A stretch of 35,243 bases of DNA from a virus: IMG/VR virus record IMGVR_UViG_3300032893_000197, positions 1 through 35,243 of that record, one strand, 5' to 3'. Under the pieces are notes generated by a model, which had not been told where the DNA came from, ran no database searches, and saw only the letters and a program-made list of their open reading frames with translations. The translations under genes and the position numbers were made by a program. Positions 1 to 22,159 of the stretch are shown piece after piece (the first letter of the stretch is position 1; each line of letters starts with the position of its first letter).

Positions 1-138
1 CACTTTAGGTACAAAACCATCTCCAACGTCTTTGGAGTCTTTGTCCTGGATCCAGAATTTGATGTCATGTCCGGCCCCCTCGCACTCCATCGCTAAAGGA
101 ACTGCCGATCCCCAACCCGATATGAATAGAATTTTCAT
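1..138 (-). CDS. ATP-grasp / PurD-like N-terminal domain (partial, runs off left edge)
   Basis: Only the first 46 residues are inside the window. They start MKILFISGWGSAVPLAMECE and continue with a GHDIKFWIQD stretch and a DVGDGFVPKV stretch. The alternation of a hydrophobic strand, a Gly-rich turn, an ALA/PLA helix and a 'GHDI' strand resembles the N-terminal PreATP-grasp domain of phosphoribosylamine-glycine ligase (PurD/GARS). Phages are known to carry PurD-like ATP-grasp proteins near structural genes. The start codon overlaps the stop of the giant internal-protein gene (ATGA), so it is translationally coupled at the end of the virion operon. The catalytic ATP-grasp domain lies outside the window, so the assignment rests on a short N-terminus. 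Confidence 0.5.
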   Translation of the reverse strand, partial: MKILFISGWGSAVPLAMECEGAGHDIKFWIQDKDSKDVGDGFVPKV

Positions 139-3100
139 TTGAACATCGCCTTATTCTCTTGGCGTGATTTGGCGGAGCGAACCATATTATCCAGCGTGAA
201 GAAATCAAACCCCTGCTCGTCGCTGATTTGGTTCGCGCGCTTGTAGAGCTTGCTGTCCTTTTCTCCTCCAGAATAATATCGGTCCAGCATTTCCATGATG
301 TAGGTTTTGGAAGGTCCGCGGCGAACTGGGAGCCCCCCATACGCGCTCTGGCCGGTTTCAAACATTGGGGTGTAGGCCGCCTTTAAGACATCGATAGGGC
401 CTACGGGCTTTTCGTAGGGGTTCATGTAGTACGACTTTGACGCGCCCCACTCCATGAGCTTTACGGCCGATTGGACCGCCGGACTCGTCTTATGAACAAA
501 TGTTTTGGCCGGATGAATGTAATCCGCAATCTCGGTTAAAGCCTTGGAAAGCTGATAATAGGTCGTTCCCTTTTCGTCTTTGCTTCGGATGACCTGATCG
601 CGGTATCCTTCCGGGTTGTCCTTGAGCCACCGGCCCTTCCCTAAAAGCCTCTTGGAGTTGTAGTAATTCATCACGTTTGAAATTGTGTACCAACCAATAA
701 AAAGCTTGGCCATCTGCTTCCGGGCCATCATTCCCTGGGGGCCTTTAAGAAGCGTGGATCCGGCCATCATCGGTCGGCCGAGTGTCCATTCCGGGGCCAG
801 CATTACCCATTGAAGCGCGCGTTGCGTGCTGGGATGGGCCATGAACTGAGCATAGGTAATGCCACCCATACCATTTGAAACCTGCGCGACGATCTGGCGC
901 TCAATTTCGGGGATAGCCATTTTCTGTCCGGCTGGAGCCTCGATGTTAAATTTCTTAATGGCCAGGGCCAGGTTGTCCTCGTAAACCAGCATCGAGCCGA
1001 TCACGCGCATATAGTCGAAGATGCTCTTATTCAGAACATCGACCGCATGTCGCGGGAGAGAAGCAAGGCCCTTTATCGGCGCGCTCTTTATCTTGGAATC
1101 CAGCATCTTCTCTAAAGACATGAGATCTCGGGACAAAATGCTGTGGATGTCTGCATCGACCGACCCAACTTTAAAGTTTCTCTCGGCCATCGTGAGCGCC
1201 AGCGGCCGGTTGGCCAAAGCGCCATGTCCACGGATAAAGGATTGGTAGAGCTGCCCGACCGCCTTGACCGGGTTCTTGCTCAAGGTTTCGCCTTCCATAT
1301 CAGCCGTGATTGCCTTCGCCAGATACCGTAATCCTCGGAACATGGTATTTCTATCTCTGTTAAAGCTGAACACGTTTCGGTAGTTAATCCCGGAAAGGAT
1401 CATCTCGCCTTCGGTGAAGCCGTGGAAGAAGCCGATCAGCTTGGCGGCCTTACTCAAGGCCATCGCGTGATTGATGTATTCGTTCTCAAGGAACTTGGCT
1501 GGCCGGGCCAGCATATACTCCGCGACCTCTTTGTAGTACGGGTTTATGGCGATACCGTCAAGCAGCGGGACTCCGCGAATCCGGATCCAGCTCTTTGGGG
1601 CTTGGCCGGTATGGGGGGTTAGCTTGGCGTTTCTGGCCATGTTCTTAGCGCCTTCGGCCGCTTCGTTAATCATGGCCGGGCCATCCGGAGCCATCGAGGC
1701 CCCAAGCTTCTGCCATGCGTGGATGCGCGAAAGAATCCCGGTCCGCGTCCGATCCATCGCCCGGATCTCGTCTTTAATGTCCATGCTGACGGGCTTAAAC
1801 CCAGCCTCGATGCCTTCGGCGCGGGTAACAAATTTTCGATTCTTTGCGAACACCGGATTGTTCCCAAGTTTCTTTCCTTCCCAATCCAGGTATTGTTCCG
1901 GTCTTTCCCACCGGCGCGTCACATGGTTTTCGACGTAGCCCATCTCGTCGTAATACTGGCTGATCAAATCGTAGGCTTCGTCCTCGCGCGCCTGGAGAGC
2001 TTTCTTGGCCTCGACCATCTGAGGAGTTGGATTCTTTGATAAGGCGACCCACCGCTTCGCGTCCTCTTCGGAGTACCCCAGGGCGGTCAAGGATTCTACG
2101 CTTGGCGCTTTGCCTTCCTGGTAGAACATCTGCGCGGCCAACTCGTCCTTGCTGAATTTTCGGAAATTGTCATGTATGAAGAAGTCGGACTCCAGCTTCA
2201 TCACTCCCTCGTCGCCATCTTTGAACAAAGCAATCTGTTGATTGGCCTTGAATTTCTTGTAGGTCCCCTTGATCATCTCGGCCTTTTTCTGTAGGTAGCT
2301 CCGCTCCGCTCGATCCGCTAAAGACTTCTGCGCGACCGGGTTCCCCTTCTTAGCCTCGTCGATTTCTTTGTAAGCATGATCGTCAAACGCGGAAAGGGTC
2401 GGCGCGATGTCCTTCCGCATGGAGTCCTGGAGTTCTTTCGGAGCGTTCCGGGCGATATAGAGCATCACATCTTCGGTGGTCTGATAGCCGATCTTCATGG
2501 CCCGGTCGGTCAATTCTTTAATGATCGCCTGTTGCCGGGCCTTCTTTACAGGATCAATTTCATTCCCGCCAGTTCCCCCAAGGCTAACCTGACCGCCTTC
2601 TCCAAGGGTATCGAAAAGGTCCCATCCAAGATCGAATGAGCTTTTCCCAAAAAGATCGTTTGGAGTCCCTTCCGGGGCCTTCTCCGCGCTTGTCTCATAG
2701 CCAGTAACGAACTTGTCCGGGAACTGCGCTTGGGGCATGTCGGGAAGTGTTTGATCTTTCGGTTTGACTTTTGGTGTCTTGGCTTCCTGTGATTCGAGGC
2801 TAAACCCGGCATCCGATTTCATCTGTGATTCGATATTATGTTCGGCCTCATCGAGGAAAGATTTAGTAGACCGTGGCCTTTCCAGATCAATGAATTTACG
2901 CGTGTAATCAAATAAGGCATTGATGTCTGGGCTGGCGATTAGTCCGGCATCGTAGGCCATCTTCGCGGCCTCATCGGGCTTGGTTTCTCCTCGGAGGTAA
3001 TCCGGGACGTTCCTCAAAACTTCCTCTTGCTCCGGAATCTTGCCGGTCATCGGGTCCGGATCGTTAAACCCTATCCCGCCGGTCGCGAACTTTAATTCGG

Positions 3101-4835
3101 CCCTGGCCTCGTTGGCTGTCTTGACATTAAAATCATGCTCCAGTTTCAATCTTTGGGCTTCGGCCTTTATCTCCAATGGATCCAATCCCTTTTGCTTGTA
3201 TTTCGCTTCGGGTAGAGCTTCTTCTATGGGGACCTTCGAATCTTTGATGATCTTTTGTCTTTGCGCTTCTTTTATGACCGCATCGATAAAGCTTTTGGAT
3301 TGAGGATTCAATTCTTCCGATCCTAAAAATCCCTGTTCTCTAAAACTACTCATCAAAGCGCCGACCGTAACCCTTCTGGCTTGTTTGGGCTCATCCGGGT
3401 GGATGTAATCAATCATCTCCTGGAGGTACTGTTTGAAGGTCTTTCCAGCTCCTTCGGAGGGCTTTACGGGGGCGGCCGTTGGCTGCTCCGGGGGAGGAGT
3501 CTTAGGCTGGGCTGGCCGCCCCGGTGAAGTCCTTGTGGGAGCTGGGGTTATGGGCTTTGTTTCTGGCGCTGGCAAGGGTTCCGGGATGTTCTCTTTCCCT
3601 GGTTTGAGGAGTCCGGCCGGTTGCGGACCTCCCGCCAAAAGCTTTTGCTCCTCAAGTTCAATGGAAGAAGGAGGGGCCCTGACAACTCCTGGAGCATAGT
3701 CCAGGTAGGCCCTCGCATTTGCGATTCTACGGGTGTAATACTCCTGGAGGAGATCTTCTGACCTGGAAAGGCTATCGGTGCGTACAGGCTCACCCTGGAG
3801 CTTCTGGAGGCGTTCCTTGGCCGCATCCCGAAGTTGGGTGATGTTGGCTTTGGCCTCCGGATAAAGATCGGCCTCCGGACCAGGAAGAGGTATCGGCTTA
3901 CCCTCTTTATAGGACTTTTGCTCTAGCTCAAGGAGATGGTTTTGGTACTGGTCATATTCGGCCTGAGCCTGGACTTTAGCCTCTTCGTGGGCCAAATGCT
4001 CTAAAGGGCGCGGTGGCCCATCGGTCGCCATACGTCCGTTGTTCTCAATGACCTGCCTCTGGATGAGACTTTTCATCTCGTTTCCAATGGTCGGTGTCCC
4101 GGTAGGCTTTGGCTTGGCCCAGGGAAGGTGAATATCGGGGAGGTGACGCTCTTTGGCCAGGAAAGGGAAGGTCACGCCAGCGGCCTTCATAAAGGCATCG
4201 ACCGGGGTAAAGTAGGCGCCGGCTCCTAAAGTGGTTTCGGGTATGGCCCCGGACAAAAGATCGCCAACGTATCGGACGCCGCCGGCCGCGGCCGCGCGCG
4301 CCATCTCAAATTGGGTGACAGGGTTCCAGGATTTGACCGTACCAAACTCTTGACCGATCCTTCCGTAGCCCTCATCCGAGGGCTCGATCATCTGCGCCCC
4401 GGCTTCAAATCCTTCGCTGACGAACTTCTTGGCGGCCTTGGCCCCCGGAATCTCAACTCCAGAGGCTTCGATATCCTCCAGGGTTGATCCGATCTTGGAG
4501 GTATCTACCTGCTCCGAAAGGGCTTTCCCAACCTTCTTGGCCGCCGGGACAACGGCTTCGGCCGCCTTCTTGACGACTGGAGCGACCTCCGAAACAACCT
4601 TCTTTCCCTTTCGAATGAGCTTGTCGGTGGTGGATTCAACCGGGATATTGGTCATCTCATCGAAGCGCTGGCGGACCTTTATGCGTTTGGATTCGGGGAG
4701 GCCAAGGTATCGGCTATCGGTCTGGACGTACTGATCCCAAAGCCGTTGCCGGACCTTCTCCTTCTTCTCCTGGGGAAGGTCTATGAACCTTTCATCCCCG
4801 GAAACCTCGTTCCAATGGTCTTGAAGCGTTGCCAT
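135..4835 (-). CDS. Giant internal virion / ejected polyvalent protein (1566 aa)
   Basis: This is the longest gene in the window and sits at the promoter-distal end of the structural operon, where short-tailed phages keep internal core or ejection proteins (T7 gp16-like position). The N-terminus holds two similar charged segments (IDLPQEKKEKVRQRLWDQY and LGLPESKRIKVRQRF, about residues 20-60). An Ala-rich amphipathic stretch and a Gly/Ala segment follow to about 220. A Pro-rich linker lies at about 398-452, and a small helical domain beginning TFKQYLQEMIDYIHPDEP at about 464. A long C-terminal region contains a GYVENHVTRRW segment (about 965) and several hydrophobic helices (about 1190, 1350-1390). 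The C-terminal half resembles the large polyvalent-protein-associated domains of phage mega-proteins. No peptidase, transglycosylase or polymerase motif was recognised. Ejection into the host is inferred from position and size. Confidence 0.6.
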   Translation of the reverse strand: MATLQDHWNEVSGDERFIDLPQEKKEKVRQRLWDQYVQTDSRYLGLPESKRIKVRQRFDEMTNIPVESTTDKLIRKGKKVVSEVAPVVKKAAEAVVPAAKKVGKALSEQVDTSKIGSTLEDIEASGVEIPGAKAAKKFVSEGFEAGAQMIEPSDEGYGRIGQEFGTVKSWNPVTQFEMARAAAAGGVRYVGDLLSGAIPETTLGAGAYFTPVDAFMKAAGVTFPFLAKERHLPDIHLPWAKPKPTGTPTIGNEMKSLIQRQVIENNGRMATDGPPRPLEHLAHEEAKVQAQAEYDQYQNHLLELEQKSYKEGKPIPLPGPEADLYPEAKANITQLRDAAKERLQKLQGEPVRTDSLSRSEDLLQEYYTRRIANARAYLDYAPGVVRAPPSSIELEEQKLLAGGPQPAGLLKPGKENIPEPLPAPETKPITPAPTRTSPGRPAQPKTPPPEQPTAAPVKPSEGAGKTFKQYLQEMIDYIHPDEPKQARRVTVGALMSSFREQGFLGSEELNPQSKSFIDAVIKEAQRQKIIKDSKVPIEEALPEAKYKQKGLDPLEIKAEAQRLKLEHDFNVKTANEARAELKFATGGIGFNDPDPMTGKIPEQEEVLRNVPDYLRGETKPDEAAKMAYDAGLIASPDINALFDYTRKFIDLERPRSTKSFLDEAEHNIESQMKSDAGFSLESQEAKTPKVKPKDQTLPDMPQAQFPDKFVTGYETSAEKAPEGTPNDLFGKSSFDLGWDLFDTLGEGGQVSLGGTGGNEIDPVKKARQQAIIKELTDRAMKIGYQTTEDVMLYIARNAPKELQDSMRKDIAPTLSAFDDHAYKEIDEAKKGNPVAQKSLADRAERSYLQKKAEMIKGTYKKFKANQQIALFKDGDEGVMKLESDFFIHDNFRKFSKDELAAQMFYQEGKAPSVESLTALGYSEEDAKRWVALSKNPTPQMVEAKKALQAREDEAYDLISQYYDEMGYVENHVTRRWERPEQYLDWEGKKLGNNPVFAKNRKFVTRAEGIEAGFKPVSMDIKDEIRAMDRTRTGILSRIHAWQKLGASMAPDGPAMINEAAEGAKNMARNAKLTPHTGQAPKSWIRIRGVPLLDGIAINPYYKEVAEYMLARPAKFLENEYINHAMALSKAAKLIGFFHGFTEGEMILSGINYRNVFSFNRDRNTMFRGLRYLAKAITADMEGETLSKNPVKAVGQLYQSFIRGHGALANRPLALTMAERNFKVGSVDADIHSILSRDLMSLEKMLDSKIKSAPIKGLASLPRHAVDVLNKSIFDYMRVIGSMLVYEDNLALAIKKFNIEAPAGQKMAIPEIERQIVAQVSNGMGGITYAQFMAHPSTQRALQWVMLAPEWTLGRPMMAGSTLLKGPQGMMARKQMAKLFIGWYTISNVMNYYNSKRLLGKGRWLKDNPEGYRDQVIRSKDEKGTTYYQLSKALTEIADYIHPAKTFVHKTSPAVQSAVKLMEWGASKSYYMNPYEKPVGPIDVLKAAYTPMFETGQSAYGGLPVRRGPSKTYIMEMLDRYYSGGEKDSKLYKRANQISDEQGFDFFTLDNMVRSAKSRQENKAMFK

Positions 4836-5624
4836 TTAGAGATCCTTGAAGAGAGCGTCCTTATCTATAACTCCGCCATCCTGGCCCTGGGGAACTGCGC
4901 CTCCGGCCGGAGCCGGGGATCCTCCACCCGCGGTGGCTTGCTTTTTAATAATCGCATCGTACTGGTCTCGGTAATCTGCTAATTTCTGCTTCATTATTTT
5001 GGCCTGTTCCGGGTCCGACTTTTCCAGCCGACTCATTTTTACGGGATCGTTGGCCGTGGCCAGCCACTTCTCGTAGGAGGCCTTGAAAGCTTGATCGCTA
5101 CGGAACTCCTGGGGGATCCCGCCGCCTCCCTTTCCTCCACCCGACGGCTTGTAATGAAAGCCATAATCCTCCAGATTGGTCATAACCTCGTCGCCATTTT
5201 CATCTTCGGTGATCATCATGTTTCCCGAGAACCGAGGCTGTTTCTGCTTCGTATTAAAGGCGTGCGCTATGTAGGCGGCCAGGATATCGTTGCTCATAGG
5301 CTGACCGGCCAGCTTTAAGAACTCCGGGCTCTTGAACCGCTTAGAAAGATAGATCGCCATGCCTTCCGGGAACTTGGTTTCGCCCATCTTCGCTTTCAGA
5401 AGTTCCAGGCGGATCTGTCCGGCTTGTGTTTCTTTGAGTCTCTTCATGGCCTCCTTATCACCAGAGGCGACCGCTAGGCGGTTATCTATCTCTTGAGTAG
5501 TCCCAAGGGTCGACTTGCTTTGTTCGGCCTGGCGCTCCGTCTTGGCTCTTTCGCCGGCAATCGCCGTGTTCCCGGCTTGCGCGAAGTTTTGACCTGCCGC
5601 TTCCAACAATCCTTCTCCAGCCAT
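4836..5624 (-). CDS. Putative internal virion protein (262 aa)
   Basis: The protein is helical and Ala/Gln/Lys-rich, with a Gly-rich hinge (KPSGGGKGGGGIPQEF, about 160-176) and a Gly/Pro tail ending DKDALFKDL. It starts MAGEGLLEAAGQNFAQAGN. It ends one base before the giant internal-protein gene and begins 9 bases after the preceding gene, so it lies in the same operon. The composition and place match the small ejection/core proteins that accompany a giant internal protein in podoviruses, but no family was recognised. An SD-like GGAGGACGTT stretch precedes the ATG. Confidence 0.5.
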   Translation of the reverse strand: MAGEGLLEAAGQNFAQAGNTAIAGERAKTERQAEQSKSTLGTTQEIDNRLAVASGDKEAMKRLKETQAGQIRLELLKAKMGETKFPEGMAIYLSKRFKSPEFLKLAGQPMSNDILAAYIAHAFNTKQKQPRFSGNMMITEDENGDEVMTNLEDYGFHYKPSGGGKGGGGIPQEFRSDQAFKASYEKWLATANDPVKMSRLEKSDPEQAKIMKQKLADYRDQYDAIIKKQATAGGGSPAPAGGAVPQGQDGGVIDKDALFKDL

Positions 5625-5633
5625 AACGTCCTC

Positions 5634-6560
5634 CTATTCGAACAACGACCCTGTGCTTTGGAATCTTGACGCATCATATCCTGGAACATTTAATGGAGAT
5701 CCCTGAAATCCCATAGGGGTTGAAGTTGAAGATCCGCCAGGACTAACCCCGGAAGCATTTATCAAATCCTTTGGAGTGCTAACAATGCTGGAAGCTAAAT
5801 TCTTTCCCGTACTGAAAATGTCGCTGGCATACTGGAGCTTTGATAGGAAGCCGCCTTGGTTAGCTTTGTCTGCAGCGATCTTTGCGTTTGCCTCTTCGGT
5901 GCCTGAGCTTCGCAGGAAATACGGCAGGGAGGCGATGAGATTCGATTGTCCGAGATCTTGGGCTGAGCGCTGGCCAGCTGCCGCCCCGGCGCGCGCCTCT
6001 GCTCCCGTAGAGATCCCCAAAAGGTTATTGATTTGATCTTGGATTGATTTGGCCTTGTTCTGCTGTTGAGTCATCCCAACCTGGAGGCCGGTAGACAACA
6101 CGTTTTCCTGAAACTGTTGGTTCGTTTGAGCAAGAGCGTTGGCCTCTGTTGAGGAAGCCCCAAGGCCACGGCTGGCCAATGATCCCTGGACCTCGGCCAG
6201 GGATGACTTAAATGATGTGGCCAGTGGAGCCAGATACGATTGAATCTGGTCTGGAGTTAAAGACCCAAAGAGCTGAGGGGCGGAACTCTGGAGATAAGAA
6301 AGCTGACTGTAAAGATTCTGCGCCTTGTCGTAGGTATCTTTGGCGTAGTTCTGCTCAAGGGTTTGGTAAGCCAACAAGGGATCGGAGGCTTGCCGTTCTT
6401 GCTCCGCTTTCTTGTAGTTGGCATACTCGGCCATCGCCGCGTTGGCCGCGCCCCCGATAACATCCATGCCAGCAAAGAGGCCCTCCTCCTCCGGTGTTGG
6501 ATTAACGACGCCATACATTTGCAACCATTGTCCTACGTCATTCGCTGAAATTTGCGGCAT
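5634..6560 (-). CDS. Putative DNA-ejection / internal core protein (308 aa)
   Basis: The product is Ala/Gln/Ser-rich and mostly helical. It contains an early GMDVIGGAANAAMAEY segment, a central SLASRGLGASSTEANALAQ segment and a low-complexity Gly/Ser/Pro tail. The 'RGLGxSS' segment followed by Gln-rich helices is typical of phage virion-assembly or ejection proteins that pack inside the head (T7 gp14 or P22 gp7/gp16-type roles). It is preceded by an AGGAGGA ribosome site, and no signal peptide is present, unlike the tail genes upstream. The function is inferred from composition and from the position between the tail and giant internal-protein genes. Confidence 0.5.
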   Translation of the reverse strand: MPQISANDVGQWLQMYGVVNPTPEEEGLFAGMDVIGGAANAAMAEYANYKKAEQERQASDPLLAYQTLEQNYAKDTYDKAQNLYSQLSYLQSSAPQLFGSLTPDQIQSYLAPLATSFKSSLAEVQGSLASRGLGASSTEANALAQTNQQFQENVLSTGLQVGMTQQQNKAKSIQDQINNLLGISTGAEARAGAAAGQRSAQDLGQSNLIASLPYFLRSSGTEEANAKIAADKANQGGFLSKLQYASDIFSTGKNLASSIVSTPKDLINASGVSPGGSSTSTPMGFQGSPLNVPGYDASRFQSTGSLFE

Positions 6561-6569
6561 AAAGTCCTC

Positions 6570-7139
6570 CTATCGAATCCTTCTTGCTGAAATTCGCCCG
6601 GAACTTGCGGGCTGCACACTCCAAGCGGATTCCTGCTTAGCGTAAACCGTGGTATTTGATGTTAACGACATCCGATAATTTGCAATCGTCAGAGGACCAA
6701 AGGTGATGATATTGCCAGAAGTGACTCCCCATTCCAAATAATTATCACCGTAAACTAATCCCCCAGAATTATTGCCTGAATTAAGTCCAATGCCACATCT
6801 AAAATCCGTGGCAGTCGCCAATGTATTTACAGCCCAAATCATTGTTACATCCCAATCTCCGGCTGTAAGATTGATGCTCGTCGCATCTCCCCATTGACCT
6901 GATGCAGGGAGATTAACATTAGTCCAATCTTGAGAAATATATTCCCCAACACATCCGGTACAAGCATTACTGCCGTTCGATACGCCGCTCTTATTAGATA
7001 TTTGCTGGCATACATTCTGGAACTCTCTTTGTTCGTCCGCGTCTTGATGAGCCAAGAGGGGACAGCTTCCCCAGGACCATTCCGCTAACCCACAGAGAAG
7101 AAGGACGGCAAACACGATATAGCGATTTCGGATCCTCAT
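6570..7139 (-). CDS. Tail-fibre-like beta protein with N-terminal signal peptide (189 aa)
   Basis: Residues 1-24 form a Sec-type signal peptide: basic MRIRNR, hydrophobic YIVFAVLLLCGLAEWSW, then small residues before SCPLL. The C-terminal part has the pattern common in phage receptor-binding tips. It runs TSINLTAGDWDVTMIW, later a TIANYRMSLTSNTTVYA stretch, and ends SSGRISARRIR. The last segment closely follows the 'G-x-I-x-ARR-[IV]-R' ending seen in many fibre C-termini. Four Cys lie early in the mature chain, with a CTGC pair. The start overlaps the stop of the nozzle-like gene by ATGA. A signal peptide on a virion fibre is unexpected because tails assemble in the cytoplasm. Confidence 0.6.
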   Translation of the reverse strand: MRIRNRYIVFAVLLLCGLAEWSWGSCPLLAHQDADEQREFQNVCQQISNKSGVSNGSNACTGCVGEYISQDWTNVNLPASGQWGDATSINLTAGDWDVTMIWAVNTLATATDFRCGIGLNSGNNSGGLVYGDNYLEWGVTSGNIITFGPLTIANYRMSLTSNTTVYAKQESAWSVQPASSGRISARRIR

Positions 7140-9847
7140 TGCACGGGCCTCTGCTTAAACAATCCTTCTATCCCATAGAGCAAGAAAGAGCATTGAGAAT
7201 CGTTTGTTCCAATCGTAAAGTCGATGGTTTGACCAAAGTCTTGATGCGAAGCGTCGACGGGAAATGGAAGTCGAACGGAGGATAGGGTCGTAAATTCGTT
7301 AAGCGATGTAGATCCAAGAGGATACTGTGCCCCTCCGCCGTCCATGTTATAGGCCAAGGTCATGGTGCAATTTCCCCCTCCAAGGACCGATGGATAGACC
7401 GCATAGAGATAATCGTCGGCCGCAAAGTCTCCAAGACCAAAAGAGCGTGTCCTAATGTGGGAGTCAATCGCTGAACCATTGTCGGACGTTCCCTGATCGT
7501 CAATATAGATATTCCCCGTTGATCGAGAATCGGCATGGTAGAGGCTATTCTTATATTGCGTGAAAGCGCCGGCATGAATGTCGAATGAGGTCCACCGATT
7601 GTCTTTATCGAGAACAATAACAGAGTCATTGGACGTATCGACTGTATTGGTTGTAAGCGAAAGCCAATAGCGGTTGTTCCATACCGTGGAGGCCAAGGGA
7701 GTCGGCTTGCTTCCAGAGAACCATTGGACGGTCCCGCTTTGAAGCGTCGGTGTTTGCGTAGCGGCCGTGACGGTAAAGGTAGCGTACCATTGCACGTAGG
7801 TGCCCGTTGTAGAATTGATTTGAGAATTTGGAGTTTGGTTTGTGCAGGAGACCGGAGCACTCATATTGGAGTTGGTGGAGGAGCAAATCGAGAAGGCTAT
7901 AGCGCCAGAATTTAGAGCCTCCTGGACATTGAAATTTCCCCACGAATTTATTGAACCGACATTGTGAATTTGAGACTTAAATGACCCGGGATTTGCAGTC
8001 GCCAAAATCGATTCTGACGTTACATAAGTCAAAGCCGTGTCTGTATTGGAAATCGTTATGGTCGTAGAATATTTTGAGTATCTATTTCCGGTTGCGTTTG
8101 TTCCTGTCGATGTTTCAAGGATTGACCAAGGACCAGAGGAAGCCGAAGAGGTTTGAAGAGAAAAAGTTGGGCTGGAGCCCGAAGTGATCCATGCCGATGC
8201 TAAAGAATAAGAAGCCGATGAAAAACCGCTGTCAAAAGTCTGAGAAGTAAAAGAGCCTGATGTCAGAGATCTCCCATTCGTGAAGTCATCGATAACGATC
8301 GAACGCAACTGAGGGAAGGAGGATCGTGTTTCATCCGATGCGGTATAGAAAGTGATATCTGTCCCGCTATTTACGAAACACTGGCTAATGGCCACATTAT
8401 ATCCAGAGGTTGCATCATCAACCGATATTCTCACCGACATTCCGTTTAATCCCGATGAACTTAGGGTGCGACTTGTATAGGTGCAGCTATTATCGGCTTC
8501 TACAAATGTGGCGGAATGTAGAGTAGATCCTCCGCAGGTCTGGATAGAAACGCTATAGGTATCGCCAGTGTTTGTGTTCGTATCAAGAAGCATCCCTGAT
8601 CCGGTTCTTGGGTTAAGAGTGCAGTGAACGCCAGACACGGAACCACTAACACTCCCGTTGCTTAACGTCCAATTCGAACTCCCACTTTCAAATCCATTGT
8701 TTGAGATATTTGTATTTCCCGATGTTATAGTCGATGCTGAAAGAGTAAAAGACGATGGAAATATAGTCGTTTGATTTGTTGATCCATTCGTCCATTGCGT
8801 TGAGGAATTTTCAACAACCGAAAAAGATGACACGACTAGATATGGCGGCGATATCGATGCACTCGTGCCACTGCTCGCCCCGGCCTGCCAATCGGACTGC
8901 TGAGACTGAACCCACGATGCCTGAGAAAATCCTCCGACCTGAATCGCCGGATCCACTTTATTCTTTATCGGGTCCGATATCCGAGTACAACTGTATCCAT
9001 TAAAGCTCTCGACGCCTCGAAGAGAAAGAAACTTAAGCCCTGAGTTATAAGTCTGTATGGACCCCCCATCGATACATCCGCACTCCTGGGTGAGCTGGCT
9101 GATCTGAAAGCTCGTCTGATCAAACCCATAGAGAGCAAAAATAGAATAGTGCTTGAAGATGTAAAGCGTATCGATATAAACGTACTCTGCGGTTATATTA
9201 TCGAAATTGTCCTGCAATCCAACCGAAAGCTGAACTGGATCTGTCGCATTTAGACCTGTCGTCCAGGTATTTCCGTCATAATATTTTGATCCATAGAGTT
9301 GATTCCCATTGGGAACCGGAGCGCCCACCACCCACAAGCGATTATGGAACTGAACGATGATCGATCCCGTCGGGCTGCCAGAAACATAGGTCGTTGATGT
9401 TCCATTCCAATAATAGACTCCCGAACTTTGATCTACAAAATAGGCGTTTCCGAAGGCATTGGTCTCGCCAACGGTGTTGTTGACAGAAACAGTCGTAATA
9501 AGGACAACGGACCCTGACAGGTTGGAGGCAATTAACTCATCTGATGATCTGGCGATCTGCCATGTGGTATTGCTCTTATCGGTATAGGTCCACAGGCCGG
9601 TGTATTGATAGGACTTAGTGGACCAGGAAAGAGCGTATCCGTTGCGCTTTGTGACCGGAGCTATTTCTCCAAAGAGAATGTTATTGGCATCCTGAACGTA
9701 TCCCGGCTGAAGGCTTTGAGGGTTGTGGTAAGAATCGAGTCCCTTAGAAAAATCTGTTTCTTGGAAAGTTTTGTTCTTGGTGACAGCAAAGGTCAAGGGC
9801 GACGCGACCGCCACCAGGGTAAAGATTCGGATAATTTTCCTGATCAT
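7136..9847 (-). CDS. Nozzle/tail-stabilisation-type beta-propeller protein with signal peptide (903 aa)
   Basis: Residues 1-21 (MIRKIIRIFTLVAVASPLTF, then A) look like a cleavable signal peptide. Immediately after comes the hallmark N-terminus of podoviral nozzle/packaged-DNA-stabilisation proteins: a TDFSKGLDSYHNP segment, then YVQDANNILFGEIAPVTKRNGY. The rest is rich in Ser/Thr/Asn and beta-strands. It includes a propeller-like first 300 residues (NAYFVDQSSGVYYWNG, RLWVVGAPVPNGNQL), a long central beta-sandwich region (about 340-680), and a C-terminal return to propeller-like strands (WNNRYWLSLTTN, VLDKDNRWTSFDIHAG). At 903 residues it is longer than T7 gp12 or P22 gp10, so the central domain is probably an insertion. 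It overlaps the adaptor gene by ATGA. Confidence 0.65.
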   Translation of the reverse strand: MIRKIIRIFTLVAVASPLTFAVTKNKTFQETDFSKGLDSYHNPQSLQPGYVQDANNILFGEIAPVTKRNGYALSWSTKSYQYTGLWTYTDKSNTTWQIARSSDELIASNLSGSVVLITTVSVNNTVGETNAFGNAYFVDQSSGVYYWNGTSTTYVSGSPTGSIIVQFHNRLWVVGAPVPNGNQLYGSKYYDGNTWTTGLNATDPVQLSVGLQDNFDNITAEYVYIDTLYIFKHYSIFALYGFDQTSFQISQLTQECGCIDGGSIQTYNSGLKFLSLRGVESFNGYSCTRISDPIKNKVDPAIQVGGFSQASWVQSQQSDWQAGASSGTSASISPPYLVVSSFSVVENSSTQWTNGSTNQTTIFPSSFTLSASTITSGNTNISNNGFESGSSNWTLSNGSVSGSVSGVHCTLNPRTGSGMLLDTNTNTGDTYSVSIQTCGGSTLHSATFVEADNSCTYTSRTLSSSGLNGMSVRISVDDATSGYNVAISQCFVNSGTDITFYTASDETRSSFPQLRSIVIDDFTNGRSLTSGSFTSQTFDSGFSSASYSLASAWITSGSSPTFSLQTSSASSGPWSILETSTGTNATGNRYSKYSTTITISNTDTALTYVTSESILATANPGSFKSQIHNVGSINSWGNFNVQEALNSGAIAFSICSSTNSNMSAPVSCTNQTPNSQINSTTGTYVQWYATFTVTAATQTPTLQSGTVQWFSGSKPTPLASTVWNNRYWLSLTTNTVDTSNDSVIVLDKDNRWTSFDIHAGAFTQYKNSLYHADSRSTGNIYIDDQGTSDNGSAIDSHIRTRSFGLGDFAADDYLYAVYPSVLGGGNCTMTLAYNMDGGGAQYPLGSTSLNEFTTLSSVRLPFPVDASHQDFGQTIDFTIGTNDSQCSFLLYGIEGLFKQRPVQ

Positions 9848-10581
9848 GGAGACCCATGCTGGCCAATGAATCCTGGATTAAAGTCTGGAGTCTTGCCTTG
9901 CCCCTGGTGCATGAGCTGTAGGAAGGCAACCCAATACTGGAAATAGACGTTAGCCAGATCCGTTTCTTCTACAGTCATAAATCCCCGATAGGCAACGTAA
10001 TAGGCCAGAGATGAGGCATACGGCTGGAGCGTCAAATTCCCATTGAAAGGAATACAGCTCGTCGTCGTGCAATCGGCTGTCTGCTGGACGTAATAGACAA
10101 CAACGGGGCCTGTCGAGCTTGAGACAGGAGCCGGATAAAAGCCCATGTAGATCGAGGCAAGGCTTTTATCGAGGTAATACTTGGTCGGAGTGCCCGAAGC
10201 GCTCGTCCAGCCGACCGATTGAGCGTCCAGTTGGTCCATCGAGGTTTGATCGATCTTCAGAAGCGCTTGCCCAGGAGCTTGATACCACACCCGGTAAGTC
10301 GCCATGAAGTCGGCCGGCATCACGTATTCGGTCGTCCCTGCCGACAACGTAAAGGTCGTCGAGCTTAGGATCATCCAGTTTTGAGCGTTCGCCTCTCGTT
10401 GTCCGTCCGAGAGGAACTGGAGCAGCGTCGCGTCCGGGAACTGCTGGCGGTTCGCAGCAGTAGATTGATCCCGTAGGTATACGCGCGCGCGAGCCAGGAT
10501 ATCGGAAGCCGTCAGCGTTGTGGCGCTGGCGACGCCTGACAAGAGAACGACAAACGAAAAGACTTTAAGAAGCCTTTTCAT
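9844..10581 (-). CDS. Head-tail adaptor (connector) protein with signal peptide (245 aa)
   Basis: After MKRLLKVFSFVVLLSGVASA, a textbook Sec signal peptide with an ASA cleavage box, the mature protein begins TTLTASDILARARVYLRDQS and continues with FPDATLLQFLSDGQREANAQ. This is the usual beginning of podoviral adaptor proteins (P22 gp4/phage gp6-type ring docking to the portal), which normally start at that 'LTxxDIL' segment with no leader. Later features are YVMPADFM, QTSMDQLDAQ and a YYVAYRGFMTVEETDLANVYFQYW helix pair, also typical. No internal Met lies near the natural start, so the leader cannot be removed by choosing another start codon. The next gene is coupled by ATGA. Confidence 0.75.
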   Translation of the reverse strand: MKRLLKVFSFVVLLSGVASATTLTASDILARARVYLRDQSTAANRQQFPDATLLQFLSDGQREANAQNWMILSSTTFTLSAGTTEYVMPADFMATYRVWYQAPGQALLKIDQTSMDQLDAQSVGWTSASGTPTKYYLDKSLASIYMGFYPAPVSSSTGPVVVYYVQQTADCTTTSCIPFNGNLTLQPYASSLAYYVAYRGFMTVEETDLANVYFQYWVAFLQLMHQGQGKTPDFNPGFIGQHGSP

Positions 10582-10596
10582 TCTGAACCGCCCTGC

Positions 10597-11172
10597 CTAG
10601 TTGTTCCCGTAGAACAATTCAACCCACATGGAAATCGCTGATTCATAAATAAGACCGAGCGTTTTCCCGTAGCTTATCGTTCTTGTTGCGGCTCCCAAAT
10701 CACATCCCGCGGCTGCTGAACTGCTCAGCGTGATGGTGGCCCCGCCAGCAGAAACAGTAGACGTTAGAATTAAGATCTGTCCGTTTGTTGCGGTAGCCGT
10801 AGCAATTTGAACGTAAGGAGCCCCCTGACCCAGAACCACTGGGCCTCCGGTTGAAACAACCGTGATATAGGTTGCCGTCGGAGAGATTGTGCTTTGAGTC
10901 GAAAGAGCCGTTGCCGCTGTCGGAGTATAAATTGTCTTTCCAACGGTCGTTTGACTCCCAGTCAGCGCGACAGACCCCGCAATCGTAGCGCCCCCCGAGG
11001 TTGTCAAATTACCGGATGAATCGACTCTCCAGGGCGTGCTGAGATTTTGCGATGGACCGCTTTCATAGCATTGAAAGTCGGTGTTCGCGCAGGTCTGAGC
11101 GCTGTGAGCCACGGAATAAAATCCCGCGACCACCATCGCCCATAGAGCGAAAAGGCCAACATACTTCTTCAT
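10597..11172 (-). CDS. Beta-rich structural/fibre-like protein with signal peptide (191 aa)
   Basis: The N-terminus MKKYVGLFALWAMVVAGFYS followed by VAHSA forms a signal peptide. The mature part starts with a Cys pair (QTCANTDFQC). It then shows Ser/Thr/Gly-rich repeats (SSGNLTTSGGATIAG) and a C-terminal beta segment with GQILILTSTVSAGG and ends SMWVELFYGNN. The pattern 'NGQ-h-h-h-L ... G ... W-x-E' is common in phage fibre/decoration domains of the kind that follow TxSGxAT repeats. It sits between the coiled-coil gene and the adaptor, with a strong AGGAGGATTTT site before the ATG. Its exact role is unknown. Confidence 0.55.
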   Translation of the reverse strand: MKKYVGLFALWAMVVAGFYSVAHSAQTCANTDFQCYESGPSQNLSTPWRVDSSGNLTTSGGATIAGSVALTGSQTTVGKTIYTPTAATALSTQSTISPTATYITVVSTGGPVVLGQGAPYVQIATATATNGQILILTSTVSAGGATITLSSSAAAGCDLGAATRTISYGKTLGLIYESAISMWVELFYGNN

Positions 11173-11181
11173 AAAATCCTC

Positions 11182-11688
11182 CTAATCAGGTCTTATAAGT
11201 TCAAGGCTCTGAGCATTTGGATCATCCGGATTGAGTTTATTCTGGATGTCCTGCCACTCACGGCATTGTTCGCTGTAGCGTTCCTGGAATTGAAGATTGT
11301 GGCGTACCGCTTGCGCGGCCTCAGACGACCCAGGCTTAGGCCACATCTCTCTCTTGGTCGGCATGTTCTTCTTGAGAACTTCCTCAAGCTCTTTGGCTCT
11401 TGCCGCCAGCCGGTCCACTTGGCTATCGGACTTCGGACGCAGATCGTCGTCACGTTGAAGGATCATTTTTTTATGCTCGATCTCCTTCTTCATTTCCGAA
11501 ACGTCCGCATCAGGATTCATGTCCTTCTTGGCGAGGATCTCCTCTTCCCTCTGCGCGATCTGATCCGCAAGCCCTCTTCGGTCTGCCTCGGTCAATTTCT
11601 GAACCGTTCGGCCGATTTTCTCTTCGCGCGATACCGATTTTGTCGGATCCCGCTTTTCCAGTACGTCAGCGTAACCTTTTCGTGCCAT
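11182..11688 (-). CDS. Charged coiled-coil protein next to the capsid gene (168 aa)
   Basis: The protein is highly charged, predicted helical and lacks Cys. Long heptad-like runs are visible (REEKIGRTVQKLTEADRRGL and later RLAARAKELEEVLKKN). Near the C-terminus are MWPKPGSSEAAQAVRHN and QERYSEQCREWQDIQ segments. It is expressed directly after the capsid gene with an AGGAGGCTATC ribosome site. It may be a head-completion or minor head protein, judged only from place and composition. Confidence 0.45.
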   Translation of the reverse strand: MARKGYADVLEKRDPTKSVSREEKIGRTVQKLTEADRRGLADQIAQREEEILAKKDMNPDADVSEMKKEIEHKKMILQRDDDLRPKSDSQVDRLAARAKELEEVLKKNMPTKREMWPKPGSSEAAQAVRHNLQFQERYSEQCREWQDIQNKLNPDDPNAQSLELIRPD

Positions 11689-11717
11689 GATAGCCTCCTA
11701 GTTTTTAGTTGAAAGAT

Positions 11718-12611
11718 TTAAGCGTTTTCTGCATACACCCAGCGCCAGTCAGACCAGCCATAGCTGTAGCGCATATATCCGGCAAACTTCGCGACGAGTG
11801 TATCGAAGTCGGTATCTTTGTAGAACTGCGGAGTCACGCGGTCAAACCAATTCAAATACATTTTCATGATCTTTGAATCGACCAAGAACCATCGGGTTGC
11901 CGAGGTCAGGTAATTCGGCCACACGACGAGCTTGTATCGGCCGACATGGAAGTTCACGTTGTTCTGCGCCGTGTCCACTTTGCCGCGAGAATTGATGATC
12001 TCGTAGGCATAGGATTCCAGATCGACAGGAACAATGAGCATGTCCGGCTGGACGGTGAGGGGATTTCCGCGGTTCGACTGATACTTCACCATTTTGATTC
12101 TGGCGGTATCGACTTCCGTTGGCGAAAGAGCCGTGGATCCGGTATTGCTTTGGCTGGACCCGCCGTTGTTGGAAGGATGGGCCGAGTTTCCCAAGCATAC
12201 TCCGTCGCCTCCGGTGATGTTCGATACGAAAGCGTTATTGAAAACGCTGGCCGCATCGGTCTCTCTTTTTCGGAACGCCGCAAGACCCAGCTGCTGGGGT
12301 CGGCGCGCGATCACGTTATACAGGTCATCGTCCACCAACTTCCGTTCCACCTTCATGCCGCGTGCAAATTCCTGGTGAATGTAGTTGGTCTTATAACCTT
12401 CTCCGGTGTCGTCGTAGGCGATCTGGCCGGTGAATGGCGCGAAGTCCGCCACATCTCCCATTTCCAGGTCGTGTTCCTGCGCTTTCCGGGATTCTTGGAT
12501 ATTGAATAGGATTTGGGCAATAGATTGTTGCTGTTCCAGGTAAAACGTATCCGCATAAACTTTACGGAGACCTGGTTCCAATAGGTCTGCGTAACTTCCA
12601 GATGTATACAT
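11718..12611 (-). CDS. Major capsid protein, HK97-fold candidate (297 aa)
   Basis: The sequence begins MYTSGSYADLLEPGLRKVYA. Features typical of a group of compact major capsid proteins are an N-terminal helix leading into 'FxLEQQQ', and an acidic/aromatic central part DDTGEGYKTNY followed by FARGMKVERKLVDDDLYNVI (E-loop/spine-helix pattern). Further on are AFRKRETDAASVFNNAF (spine helix), SAHPSNNGGSSQSN, QPDMLIVPVDLESYAYEI and VGRYKLVVWPNYLTSATRWF, then a C-terminal DWRWVYAENA. Size, order (portal, scaffold, decoration, capsid, adaptor) and this 'PDxLxVPxxLExxA' motif all fit. A strong AGGAGGAAACT site lies before the ATG. It would form the icosahedral shell. Confidence 0.75.
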   Translation of the reverse strand: MYTSGSYADLLEPGLRKVYADTFYLEQQQSIAQILFNIQESRKAQEHDLEMGDVADFAPFTGQIAYDDTGEGYKTNYIHQEFARGMKVERKLVDDDLYNVIARRPQQLGLAAFRKRETDAASVFNNAFVSNITGGDGVCLGNSAHPSNNGGSSQSNTGSTALSPTEVDTARIKMVKYQSNRGNPLTVQPDMLIVPVDLESYAYEIINSRGKVDTAQNNVNFHVGRYKLVVWPNYLTSATRWFLVDSKIMKMYLNWFDRVTPQFYKDTDFDTLVAKFAGYMRYSYGWSDWRWVYAENA

Positions 12612-12641
12612 AGTTTCCTCCTGCTGTTGTTTTCATGGCCC

Positions 12642-12680
12642 GACTTGGGGAGGACCTAAGGAGAAGTCCGCCCCCAAGTC
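12642..12680 (-). other. RNA hairpin between decoration-like and capsid genes
   Basis: GACTTGGGG (12642-12650) and CCCCAAGTC (12672-12680) form a perfect 9-bp inverted repeat with a 21-base loop. It lies between the stop of the decoration-like gene and the ribosome site of the capsid gene. No U-tract follows on either strand, so it is not a standard terminator. It may set mRNA processing or stability and thereby raise capsid expression; this is inference. Confidence 0.5.
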
Positions 12681-12691
12681 AGGCAAAAGAT

Positions 12692-13444
12692 TTAGGCGTT
12701 AGTCATCATGTAATGCTGGCTGCTCTTGAGATCCGCATGGATCTGCCCGGTCGATACCGGGAAATACAATCCATCGTGCTTCGTGGGATCAAGAGTGACA
12801 TAATCAAACCCTGGACCCTTTAAGAGAATGTCCAGGACCTTCAATTCGACGGCTCCCTGGGCCGCTGTTCCGCCCGAGAGTTTTTCGTATGTCGCCGCCA
12901 AAGTTACCTTCGGCATGTTCACGTAACCGATTTTCAGAGCCTTGTTGCTGGTCGTTTCTGAGGAGTTCACGGCGCTTTTAAGCGTGTAGGTTCCCGAGGA
13001 GCTAGACAGAACGTAATGCAGATAGCCTGCATCCGTCCAGAGCCAACCGCCGGAAATATCTTCTCCCGAAGAGACCACGATCGACGTACTCGCGCAAGTG
13101 GTCATCGTCAGACCGGTTGTGAAGTTTGACCCCGTCAATGCGCTATTGAATTGAGTTCGATAGACATGGAGAGGACCGACAATGCAATCCGCCAGGATAT
13201 ACTTCGTTCCCGCGTTCGGATCGTTGTCCAAGGTCGCTCCGGCCCAGGCTTGCGCCAGGATTCCAACGAACAACCCAGCTTGACTGGTGTTCACAGGAGC
13301 CGGGATCAAGAAGCCGACGTTGGTCCCCATCGTTGTGCCTTTGACCAGGAAAGCGCCCTGGACAAGATTCGCTCCGGCCGAATAAATCGGTTGAGCCTTT
13401 TTCCATTCCGCGCCACCGCTGGCGTCATAAGCGTATACGGCCAT
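12692..13444 (-). CDS. Putative head decoration / structural protein (250 aa)
   Basis: The protein starts MAVYAYDASGGAEWKKAQPI, is Gly/Ser/Thr-rich and predicted beta. It contains GAFLVKGTTMGTNVGFLIPA, an AGLFVGILAQ segment and a TKYILADCIVGPLHVYRTQF segment, and ends TGQIHADLKSSQHYMMTNA. Its place directly upstream of the capsid gene is that of a lambda gpD-like decoration protein or a minor head protein. The internal arrangement (hydrophobic beta core plus 'GxxVGIL') fits but does not prove this. It has no signal peptide, in contrast to the tail genes. A GAGGTGA ribosome site precedes the start. Confidence 0.5.
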   Translation of the reverse strand: MAVYAYDASGGAEWKKAQPIYSAGANLVQGAFLVKGTTMGTNVGFLIPAPVNTSQAGLFVGILAQAWAGATLDNDPNAGTKYILADCIVGPLHVYRTQFNSALTGSNFTTGLTMTTCASTSIVVSSGEDISGGWLWTDAGYLHYVLSSSSGTYTLKSAVNSSETTSNKALKIGYVNMPKVTLAATYEKLSGGTAAQGAVELKVLDILLKGPGFDYVTLDPTKHDGLYFPVSTGQIHADLKSSQHYMMTNA

Positions 13445-13520
13445 AATTCACCTCATATGTGAAACAATTTGGATTTAGGCAAAAGAGACAGAGGAAAGAG
13501 TTTAGAGGGTACAGCTTAAA

Positions 13521-13874
13521 TCAAAGGTTCTCGACGCTCTTGTGAGGCCGTTCAAAACCTGTTTCGCCCCGGCCAACGGCCCGAGGGTTCATCGTGTTGC
13601 AAAAAGGGCATCCCGATTTTGTATCAACCGGATCCGCGTACTGATCCGTAAAGCTCGCTCCGCGAGGAGGTGTGAAGGTTGAAGAATACTGCGTCGCGCT
13701 TCCCGACGGTATCGCCCCCAGGCTGTCCCCGGTCTCGCGCGTTCTCAGGTTGACCGTAAACCCGCATTGAGCGCACTCGATCATTTTGTCGAGCTGATCG
13801 GATTTTTTGATGTAACGAGATTGATAAATCTCCTTACCATCCGAAGCGTTGGGGCCTGGGTGAACAGCATTCAT
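13521..13874 (-). CDS. Small CxxC zinc-binding protein (117 aa)
   Basis: Two CxxC knuckles, CAQC (about 35) and CPFC (about 89), are separated by about 50 residues of polar, Pro/Gly/Ser-rich sequence. They could fold as one zinc ribbon. A CPFCNTMNPRAVGRG segment follows the second knuckle. The gene is coupled to the scaffold candidate by an ATGA overlap (13871-13874) and is followed by the decoration-like gene. No named family was recognised. It is one of several mini zinc-binding proteins in the window. Confidence 0.5.
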   Translation of the reverse strand: MNAVHPGPNASDGKEIYQSRYIKKSDQLDKMIECAQCGFTVNLRTRETGDSLGAIPSGSATQYSSTFTPPRGASFTDQYADPVDTKSGCPFCNTMNPRAVGRGETGFERPHKSVENL

Positions 13875-14563
13875 CTCTTTGACATCATCCTTTTCAACTC
13901 AACATCAGCCATGCTCGTTACCGGGCGCTCATCGGGAATCCGAAGCTCACGAATCGCCCGTCCGGCGTTCCTCGACTTGGCATAGGCTTTATAGTCTACT
14001 CCGAGCTTATCCGCAACAAATTTCTCGTTGTCATTCAATTCTTCATTCGGAGAATCGCCGCGTTCGTCGCGACCCCCGGAAAGGCTTGGCTCTGATCCGG
14101 TATAGCCGGGACCGCCGCTTACGCGAGTCGACTCCACCTTGGGACTTTTGGGAGTTTCTTTGGGCTTGGCATCACTATGTTTCCCCTTCACGTAGTAATA
14201 AATCTTTTCCATGATCTCCGGAGTCCTTCGCTCTTGAGGATAGATCGACAATTCCTTTTCGATCTCGGCTCGATAGTTCTCAAGATCCGGACGTTTCTCA
14301 AGCGTCGACCATGCGGTTCGCTCAATAACGGGGGCCTGGGCGCGCATGATCATCTCTTCATGGGCGGCCATTTGCTCGTCAGTATAGCCGAGGCTCTTTT
14401 GGAGAACGGCTCTCCGGTCGGCGTAGGTCGGAGCGGACGGGGCCTCGGGCTTTTCTTCCGGCTTCTTCAAGCTCTCCGCGGCGGACTTGAGTTCCTCAAG
14501 CACCTTGGAGACTTCTTCATTCATCGGCTTTTCTTCTGTCTTAGGCTCTTGTTCTGGTGGCAT
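13871..14563 (-). CDS. Putative scaffolding protein (230 aa)
   Basis: The sequence is very hydrophilic and Glu/Lys/Pro-rich. It opens MPPEQEPKTEEKPMNEEVSK, contains a helical, charged core (TYADRRAVLQKSLGYTDEQM), a Ser/Gly/Pro-rich disordered section (VSGGPGYTGSEPSLSGG) and ends in a basic helix (SMADVELKRMMSKR). Scaffolds of P22-like and T7-like phages lie between portal and capsid and are elongated, acidic at the front and basic helical at the C-terminus, as here. The basic tail would bind the inner capsid wall. The assignment comes from composition and gene order. Confidence 0.55.
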   Translation of the reverse strand: MPPEQEPKTEEKPMNEEVSKVLEELKSAAESLKKPEEKPEAPSAPTYADRRAVLQKSLGYTDEQMAAHEEMIMRAQAPVIERTAWSTLEKRPDLENYRAEIEKELSIYPQERRTPEIMEKIYYYVKGKHSDAKPKETPKSPKVESTRVSGGPGYTGSEPSLSGGRDERGDSPNEELNDNEKFVADKLGVDYKAYAKSRNAGRAIRELRIPDERPVTSMADVELKRMMSKR

Positions 14564-14568
14564 TGGTT

Positions 14569-14667
14569 TTAGTCCTCGCTTTCTTCATCTTCTTCTTCAG
14601 TTTCTTCGCGCTGATCCATCGGACAGGGATCGGCCTGCCATAAATCCCATCGCTCACGATTTTCCAT
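14569..14667 (-). CDS. Very acidic 32-residue mini-protein
   Basis: This short frame starts MENRERWDLWQADPCPMDQR and ends in an almost purely Glu/Asp tail. It overlaps the end of the coiled-coil gene by 14 bases and stops 5 bases before the scaffold candidate, filling an otherwise empty gap. The arrangement suggests a real coupled gene. It may be a head-assembly accessory, but short length and low complexity leave doubt. Confidence 0.4.
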   Translation of the reverse strand: MENRERWDLWQADPCPMDQREETEEEDEESED

Positions 14668-15097
14668 TCTCCGATTCGGATCCAACGGTCATCTCCTCCA
14701 ACTGCTTCTTTAAGACGGGGAGTTTTTCCCGGCACGTGGCGGCAAAAGAAATGATTTGATCCGGCTCTCTGGCCCACTTCTCCGCCTCCAGCTTTTGAAT
14801 CTGATGTCGAACAATGAAGTCGACCCAATCCGATTTTGAGGAAACGTATTTCTGCTTGTCAAATTCCGTCATTACATATCCATTGGAAGGAGCATCCACC
14901 AGCATCGCCTGGCCCATTTTAATCTCGCGGTCGTGAAGCTCGGCCAATACTTTCAGATCGGCCATGTATCCCTGCCAATCCTTGTTGTCTTTTAATCGCT
15001 CATACTTCTCGGCCTTGGCAAGGGCTTCCTCGCAAATCCGTATTCCCCGTTCAACCTGATCGATGTTCTGTTTTTCTTTGGCTTTAGGTGTTAGCAT
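14654..15097 (-). CDS. Coiled-coil protein downstream of portal (147 aa)
   Basis: The protein is helical and charged, with a first half (EKQNIDQVERGIRICEEALA) that suggests a coiled coil and a second half containing SSKSDWVDFIVRHQIQKLEA. It begins 4 bases after the portal stop. Genes in this place are often minor head or internal scaffold accessories; no family is recognised. Confidence 0.45.
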   Translation of the reverse strand: MLTPKAKEKQNIDQVERGIRICEEALAKAEKYERLKDNKDWQGYMADLKVLAELHDREIKMGQAMLVDAPSNGYVMTEFDKQKYVSSKSDWVDFIVRHQIQKLEAEKWAREPDQIISFAATCREKLPVLKKQLEEMTVGSESENGKS

Positions 15098-15101
15098 TTA
15101 G

Positions 15102-21396: not shown

Positions 21397-21566
21397 CAGG
21401 CCATCGATCCCGTAAAGTAGCCGTTCCCCAAACACACGTTGCAGACGTAGGGAAGCTGCTGAGTCGGGGCGGTGAAGGTGGTCGAGTTCGGGGCGTTCGT
21501 TTCGTCCGCGTATCCCGCGACCGTGTATTTGATGCCGTTGCATTGGGGACAAACAATCATGCTCAT
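21396..21566 (-). CDS. Mini zinc-ribbon protein (56 aa)
   Basis: MSMIVCPQCNGIKYTVAGYA begins with a CPQC knuckle, and a second, CNVCLGNGYF, follows about 35 residues later. The CxxCxGxGx form is DnaJ-like. Both ends are coupled to neighbours by ATGA overlaps (21563-21566 and 21394-21396), which strongly supports a real gene although it is short. Confidence 0.55.
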   Translation of the reverse strand: MSMIVCPQCNGIKYTVAGYADETNAPNSTTFTAPTQQLPYVCNVCLGNGYFTGSMA

Positions 21567-22159
21567 AAATTATCTTCCCTCCAGAGGATATGCGCCTGTA
21601 AATTGGCGGCGCTTGAGCTTTGAAGCGAGATCATGGCTCCGGGAGGAATAACGACCTTGCCGTTAGTGTTGTCAGTAAAGACAGCGCCTCCGATGGCCGA
21701 GGCTCCAGTCGTTCCTCCCAAAAAGCGGAAGTTCACCGGCAAGGAGGGAAGGATTCCCTTGAGCCAGCAGACTCCGGAATTGCCTCCGGCGAGCGTCACC
21801 GAGGAAGTGGACTTGGCGATAAGCGCCGGGATGACAACTCCCGCAGCCCCCGTATTGGTCGAAATAGCGATGGTCCCCGTCGTATAGGCCAGCGTGAACT
21901 GGGCAGAGGCGGACGGAGAGGCCATGACGTTAATTCCGACATCAAGTACGGTTAAGTTCTTCCCCGAGTTCCAGGGGTTGTAGAGCGATATCGTGGGGCT
22001 GGAAAGAGACACGCCGGCCTGCGTAGTGACGGTTCCTGTAGAGGCGCAGTAGAACATATTTCCGGCGTTATTCGAATAATCCGGCGAACCCCCGGAGGAA
22101 AATAGACCGGCAAAAGATACCGAAGGCAAAAGAGCGAGGAGCCACAGAATCTTTTTCAT
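21563..22159 (-). CDS. Signal-peptide-bearing beta structural protein (198 aa)
   Basis: The start at 22159 gives MKKILWLLALLPSVSFAGLF, a clear Sec signal peptide (cleavage after SFA). It also overlaps the upstream mini zinc-ribbon stop by ATGA, whereas the longer frame start does not. The mature chain has SPTISLYNPWNSGKNLTVLD (a pattern seen in minor virion proteins), is Ser/Thr/Ala/Gly-rich, and ends SSAANLQAHILWREDNL. A minor capsid or fibre-like virion protein is likely, but export would be at odds with cytoplasmic assembly. Confidence 0.55.
   Translation of the reverse strand: MKKILWLLALLPSVSFAGLFSSGGSPDYSNNAGNMFYCASTGTVTTQAGVSLSSPTISLYNPWNSGKNLTVLDVGINVMASPSASAQFTLAYTTGTIAISTNTGAAGVVIPALIAKSTSSVTLAGGNSGVCWLKGILPSLPVNFRFLGGTTGASAIGGAVFTDNTNGKVVIPPGAMISLQSSSAANLQAHILWREDNL

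Follow-up and report, generated by a model that had tools for sequence, protein, structure and literature searches.

In the window, i.e., the entire 35,243-base viral record analysed here, the order of transcription on the minus strand is terminase, portal, scaffold-like protein, capsid, a 168-aa protein, four genes whose products begin with predicted Sec leaders, and three internal-type proteins, the last of which is 1566 aa long. With a terminase, a portal, and an HK97-type capsid, the window belongs among the Caudoviricetes. An inovirus-like membrane assembly, that is, a filamentous virion without portal and terminase, was considered and ruled out, since portal, terminase, and capsid are all present. 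The features are listed below in order of transcription, with one further leader-bearing gene placed first.

21563-22159, minus strand: fifth leader-bearing protein, predicted leader MKKILWLLALLPSVSFA followed by GLF (from the sequence; leader-bearing relatives in G001, G002, and G003)
18837-20534, minus strand: terminase large subunit, no leader (PHROG 2, E=5e-18; tblastn matches to phage terminases)
15102-17228, minus strand: portal, no leader (PHROG 332, E=5e-9; leader absent in 4 members)
13871-14563, minus strand: scaffold-like acidic protein, no leader (position and composition)
11718-12611, minus strand: major capsid protein, no leader (Pfam PF25209, E=8e-18; leader absent in 7 members)
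10597-11172, minus strand: outer protein, conjecturally fibre-like, with predicted Sec leader at about 11098-11172 (leader score 13.2)
9844-10581, minus strand: SU10-type head-to-tail adaptor with predicted Sec leader at 10522-10581 and mature part at 9844-10521 (PF24175, AlphaFold2 model, leader score 13.5)
9844-9847, minus strand: ATGA overlap of nozzle start and adaptor stop (from the sequence)
7136-9847, minus strand: putative nozzle (tail hub) protein with predicted Sec leader at 9785-9847 and mature part at 7136-9784 (weak matches, position, leader score 11.0)
7136-7139, minus strand: ATGA overlap of small fibre gene start and nozzle stop (from the sequence)
6570-7139, minus strand: tail-fibre-like protein with predicted Sec leader at about 7068-7139 (PHROG 11393, tail fibre, E=3e-8; leader score 13.9)
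135-6560, minus strand: three internal/ejection-type proteins (135-4835, 4836-5624, and 5634-6560), no leader (leader score; sampled members)

The four adjoining genes at positions 6570-11172 encode an SU10-type head-tail adaptor, its putative nozzle partner, and two proteins termed fibre-like, each beginning with a canonical Sec leader. Sequence and predicted structure firmly identify 9844-10581 as the adaptor. Its leader, MKRLLKVFSFVVLLSGVASA, has its predicted cut between residues 20 and 21, followed by TTLTASDIL, and the match to the Pfam family SU10_adaptor (PF24175; E=4e-23, 83.3 bits against a cut-off of 27; residues 24-226 aligned to profile positions 2-183) begins just past this cut, precursor residue 24 corresponding to profile position 2. 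The AlphaFold2 model (pLDDT 75) resembles the virion adaptors of GP4, VP1, Pa223, SU10, N4, and crAss001, with Foldseek E-values from 3e-10 to 1e-6 for the first five. The protein encoded at 7136-9847, with the leader MIRKIIRIFTLVAVASPLTFA followed after the predicted cut by VTKNKTFQETDFSKGLD, is assigned provisionally as the nozzle from weak sequence matches (PHROG 511, E=4e-8; weak tblastn matches to stabilisation/tail proteins of HMO-2011-like and other podophages) together with its place in the gene order after the adaptor; PDB sequence searches with it matched nothing, and its structure model, with a pLDDT of 43, is too poor for judging a beta-propeller nozzle fold. In 6570-7139 the leader MRIRNRYIVFAVLLLCGLAEWSWG precedes SC at the cut, and in 10597-11172 the leader MKKYVGLFALWAMVVAGFYSVAHSA precedes QTC; in the family of the latter a leader is present in nine of nine members by eye and in eight of nine by score. 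The original prediction that these four open reading frames begin with leaders is thus borne out for all of them, the two it called fibre-like included; that name is backed by the PHROG 11393 match for 6570-7139 only, as 10597-11172 matches no Pfam or PHROG family and its label is a guess. The fifth leader-bearing protein likely starts at an ATG inside the listed ORF 21563-22288.

Leaders were judged with a home-made signal-peptide score based on the n-region charge, the hydrophobic core, and the -3/-1 rule, with a value of at least 9 taken as a pass. Scores of 11-15 are reached by each of the 12 known E. coli leaders, random internal windows pass in 9 of 8000 cases (0.1%), and shuffled N-termini in 2%. 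Of the outer proteins of the clade 30 of 33 pass, showing the anatomy of Sec/signal peptidase I substrates (positive n-region, uncharged hydrophobic core, small residues at -3/-1) with conserved sites; the misses are a fibre homologue whose n-region carries no net charge, a nozzle with no usable start codon, and a fibre homologue scoring 8.99. None of the 40 head and internal proteins passes, in keeping with the prediction that capsid, portal, scaffold, and internal proteins are leaderless, and the five control phages (SU10, HMO-2011, CRP-7, Amaethon, and a Manatee Spring podophage) contribute a single pass, the SU10 holin, out of 74 genes of the structural region. Across ten clade loci leaders occur in 0 of 75 genes up to and including the capsid and in 32 of 64 genes after it (Fisher 6e-14, with kinship ignored). 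In L085 they are present on six of the seven tail-side genes, from 9492 to 16292, comprising the adaptor, the nozzle, and four neighbouring tail genes, and the relatives read at greatest length encode further large fibre-like proteins with leaders (G001, 37135-44187; G002, 8415-16717; G004, 410-5855). Ejection-type proteins travel inside the head, by analogy, and none of those scored in clade members has a leader. Since outer proteins carry leaders and head and ejection proteins do not, the divide follows what ends up outside the head. A DUF5675 protein of G002, possibly a lysis enzyme, is leaderless, so a general tendency of these genomes is not enough to account for the leaders. Taken from the sequences, a function of these N-terminal segments as Sec leaders is strongly supported.

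Relatives were gathered from viral contigs by capsid, portal, adaptor, and nozzle searches; a single-sequence adaptor scan of the viral contigs returned nothing, whereas alignment scans did find relatives. Adaptors with leaders are encoded in L006, L007, L008, L010, L012, L013, L014, L052, L058, L061, L075, and L085, and the nozzles of these loci, where present, also have leaders, that of L014 by eye only; every clade member checked carries them on adaptor, nozzle, and fibre. Pairs of relatives share 15-22% identity in the leaders and 41-57% in the mature parts, with the leader score retained, so that the leader sequence drifts and a function-like pattern stays; residue -1 at the aligned cut is A, G, or S in nearly all members. 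The leaderless outgroup adaptors of L016, L018, and L022 start at the column right after the cut, exactly as had been proposed when the sequence past the cut was taken for the normal start of the homologous virion protein, so the leader appears to have been added to a protein that already existed. The comparison of homologues with and without leaders thus upholds the notion that Sec leaders have been joined to virion N-termini of otherwise normal form, and that they are confined to the outer proteins of the virion. In the capsid tree the loci with tail leaders form two groups, that of the window (11 rows, 100/99) and that of L075 and L085 (100/99), and leader presence needs 2 changes versus 6.8 in shuffles; the tail leaders may have had a single origin.

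Several other features of the window and its relatives are also worth mentioning. The remote relative L053 (7803-12289; nozzle 26% identical) may represent an intermediate state: leaders are found on its nozzle and on a gene upstream of the adaptor, and the adaptor itself (9052-9768) is leaderless. Of the leaders on adaptor, nozzle, and small fibre proteins, about one in three has Trp at -2 of the cut (SWA, CWG, AWG, SWG), possibly a fingerprint of the host's signal peptides. In L078, a related phage, a leader-bearing protein of the tail region (11125-11646) carries a PEP-CTERM-like sorting signal at its end (VTPEPMGIILYGLGGLPLVAWLRRKRV), which as a sequence motif points to a host with exosortase. 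Neither the capsid nor the nozzle alignment retrieved a relative from bacterial and archaeal genomes, so no host is assigned. In the relatives L036 (15594-16880), L038 (16714-18060), and L043 (6457-7773) the gene next after that of the largest ejection protein encodes 428-448 aa; the L036 copy matches the phosphoribosylglycinamide synthetase ATP-grasp domain (E=4e-10), the other two looking alike by N-terminus and position, and an enzyme of this type is odd for a place beside an ejection protein. The early region of the window encodes a 303-aa hydrophobic protein (32601-33512), apparently spanning the membrane several times, with no Pfam or PHROG match. Searches for tRNAs and Rfam families gave no match. 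A pooled Pfam scan of early genes of relatives (L035 and L041, the early regions of G001 and G003) gave one match each to GATase_4, a glutamine amidotransferase family, and to the amidoligase family Amidoligase_2.

The cysteines of the tail proteins bear on the compartment in which these proteins would fold. In 12 nozzles the cysteines of the pairs 256/287, 655/668, 827/886, and 74/112 (numbered by the window protein, the last pair by the alignment columns of those residues) are jointly present or absent; a fifth pair, 2/804, which falls in part within the leader, is probably due to chance. Five perfect pairs were seen versus 0.44 expected from column shuffling, and one of 2000 shuffles was as high, a figure inflated by the kinship that the shuffling ignores. 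These cysteines thus appear to have been gained and lost together, as the partners of disulfides would be. Cysteine density is 9.8 per 1000 residues in leader proteins, 2.3 in virion proteins without leaders, and 4.2 in control tails, and no sampled member of the internal proteins has any cysteine. Higher density was nevertheless dropped as proof of export, for it does not appear in like-for-like comparisons of nozzles and adaptors: nozzles with leaders have 10.6 cysteines per 1000, not clearly more than the 8.3 of leaderless homologues, and adaptors with leaders have fewer than leaderless ones. As leaderless nozzles are nearly as cysteine-rich, only the co-varying pairs are kept as support. 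Of the three ways out first proposed for tail parts with leaders, namely processing, retention at the membrane, and assembly outside the cytosol, they favour, together with the conserved cut sites and at the level of sequence patterns, processing outside the cytosol. A Pfam scan of 68 mostly non-virion proteins from three relatives revealed no phage-encoded signal peptidase or disulfide enzyme.

The presence of predicted leaders on the tail and their absence from the head in this family of uncultured phages suggest that the heads are made inside the cell and the tails outside the inner membrane. The outer tail module of a podovirus-like tailed phage, i.e., adaptor, nozzle, and fibres, would have acquired functional Sec signal peptides. 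In the cytoplasm, head and ejection proteins would be made and the heads filled with DNA; the tail proteins would cross via SecYEG, a periplasm being assumed. Host signal peptidase I would cut them to the N-terminus at which leaderless relatives begin, and they would fold beyond the inner membrane, the nozzle with disulfides. Heads and tails would meet once lysis breaks the inner membrane, so that the virion would be complete at or after lysis; the benefit may be disulfide stability, avoidance of premature assembly, or concealment of tail proteins from cytoplasmic sensors. We consider it rather probable that tail parts of a podovirus-like phage are exported by Sec, trimmed, folded with disulfides, and joined at lysis to filled cytoplasmic heads, and give slightly better than even chances to the statement that the virion of this lineage as such is built in two compartments, its exported disulfide-bonded tail meeting the heads only at lysis. 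Known podoviruses attach the tail to the packaged head within the cytoplasm, which counts against assembly in two compartments, as does the combination of a nozzle leader and a leaderless adaptor in L053. Separately made heads and tail parts join in extracts, a classical result for T4 and P22. As, moreover, the tail of known podoviruses joins the portal after genome packaging (PMC6702177), late joining would be feasible. The G002 DUF5675 protein adjoins small proteins that look membrane-spanning, a neighbourhood consistent with a holin-dependent lysis step.

Other explanations of the N-terminal segments have to be weighed. Metagenomic gene calls can err, and the starts of the L006 adaptor and the L014 nozzle are uncertain, so the segments might be products of wrong start codons or chance hydrophobic N-termini. 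For the genes of the window, however, this is contradicted by conservation in many genomes, by the low pass rate of random windows, by the two ATGA overlaps, and by ribosome-binding sites, with an AGGAGG-type site upstream of the 10597-11172 gene and of most of its relatives; the overlaps and binding sites make the starts of these genes sound, and the relatives compared share no start codon at the position of the mature N-terminus. An error of this kind thus seems extremely improbable, and neither of the results that could have overturned the original prediction appeared: the homologues give no sign of a start-site artefact, and the leader scores lie well above background. The segments could also be virion propeptides, or membrane-active segments for assembly or DNA ejection, unrelated to Sec, given that the 'signal peptides' on the capsid of Porphyromonas gingivalis phages are thought to be removed by a prohead protease (PMC10367356). 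Here, however, the capsid has no such segment, and the full anatomy of a signal peptide recurs on unrelated proteins that share only their location outside the head, which makes this explanation improbable, though less so than wrong starts.

The least unlikely of the alternatives, yet still an unlikely one, is that the leaders are anchors, cleaved slowly or not at all, that keep tail parts at the inner membrane, the site at which heads would dock and the virion would be completed. Their hydrophobic cores could sit in the membrane, and the tail parts would stay in one place; but a pure anchor has no need of the small residue at -1, which is kept in nearly all members despite the low identity of the leaders, leaderless homologues begin right at the cut, and the mature domain would still lie on the far side of the membrane from the portal. 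Phage proteins exported to block superinfection exist, and export might serve some such non-virion purpose, e.g., receptor blocking against a second infection, with the virion built from unexported or downstream-start copies. Adaptor and nozzle are not receptor binders, however, the genomes read show no further copy lacking a leader, and the mature N-terminus lacks a conserved internal start, so we regard this as doubtful, by a small degree more so than anchoring.

One of the closest known systems is the tail of Escherichia phage SU10 (Kuravirus), which consists of the adaptor gp11, the nozzle gp17, and fibres, with ejection proteins inside the head (PMC9509320). The window resembles it in adaptor family and fold, in the set of adaptor and putative nozzle with fibres, and in the presumably head-internal ejection proteins, but the adaptor, nozzle, and fibres of SU10 have no Sec leader, its holin being the sole match by score. 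Of the cultured phages, Dickeya phage Amaethon and Puniceispirillum phage HMO-2011 give some of the nearest matches to adaptor and nozzle, and none of their structural-region genes scores as having a leader. In tailed phages of P. gingivalis, the nearest published case, signal peptides are predicted both on proteins of unknown function and on the capsid, those of the capsid being attributed to the prohead protease (PMC10367356), whereas in the window they are on the tail and not on the capsid. No report of a tailed phage with leaders on adaptor or nozzle was found in the open-licence literature. Inovirus coat proteins have cleaved Sec leaders and membrane-linked assembly, and inoviruses have no icosahedral head, portal, or terminase. 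The likeness lies in virion proteins with Sec leaders; in the window, in contrast, the leaders are on the tail only, the fold is that of a tailed-phage adaptor, and portal and terminase are present. The parts of the window thus belong to known families, and it is the predicted leaders on the tail that set it apart from SU10, Amaethon, and HMO-2011.

According to current teaching, tailed phages assemble wholly in the cytoplasm. If the proposed export of the tail is true, the split of head and tail between two compartments changes this picture, and rings of adaptor and nozzle are able to assemble once these proteins have passed through Sec. The possible reasons would be stabilisation by disulfides or the hiding of tail proteins from cytoplasmic immune sensors, and the timing of tail attachment would become directly testable.
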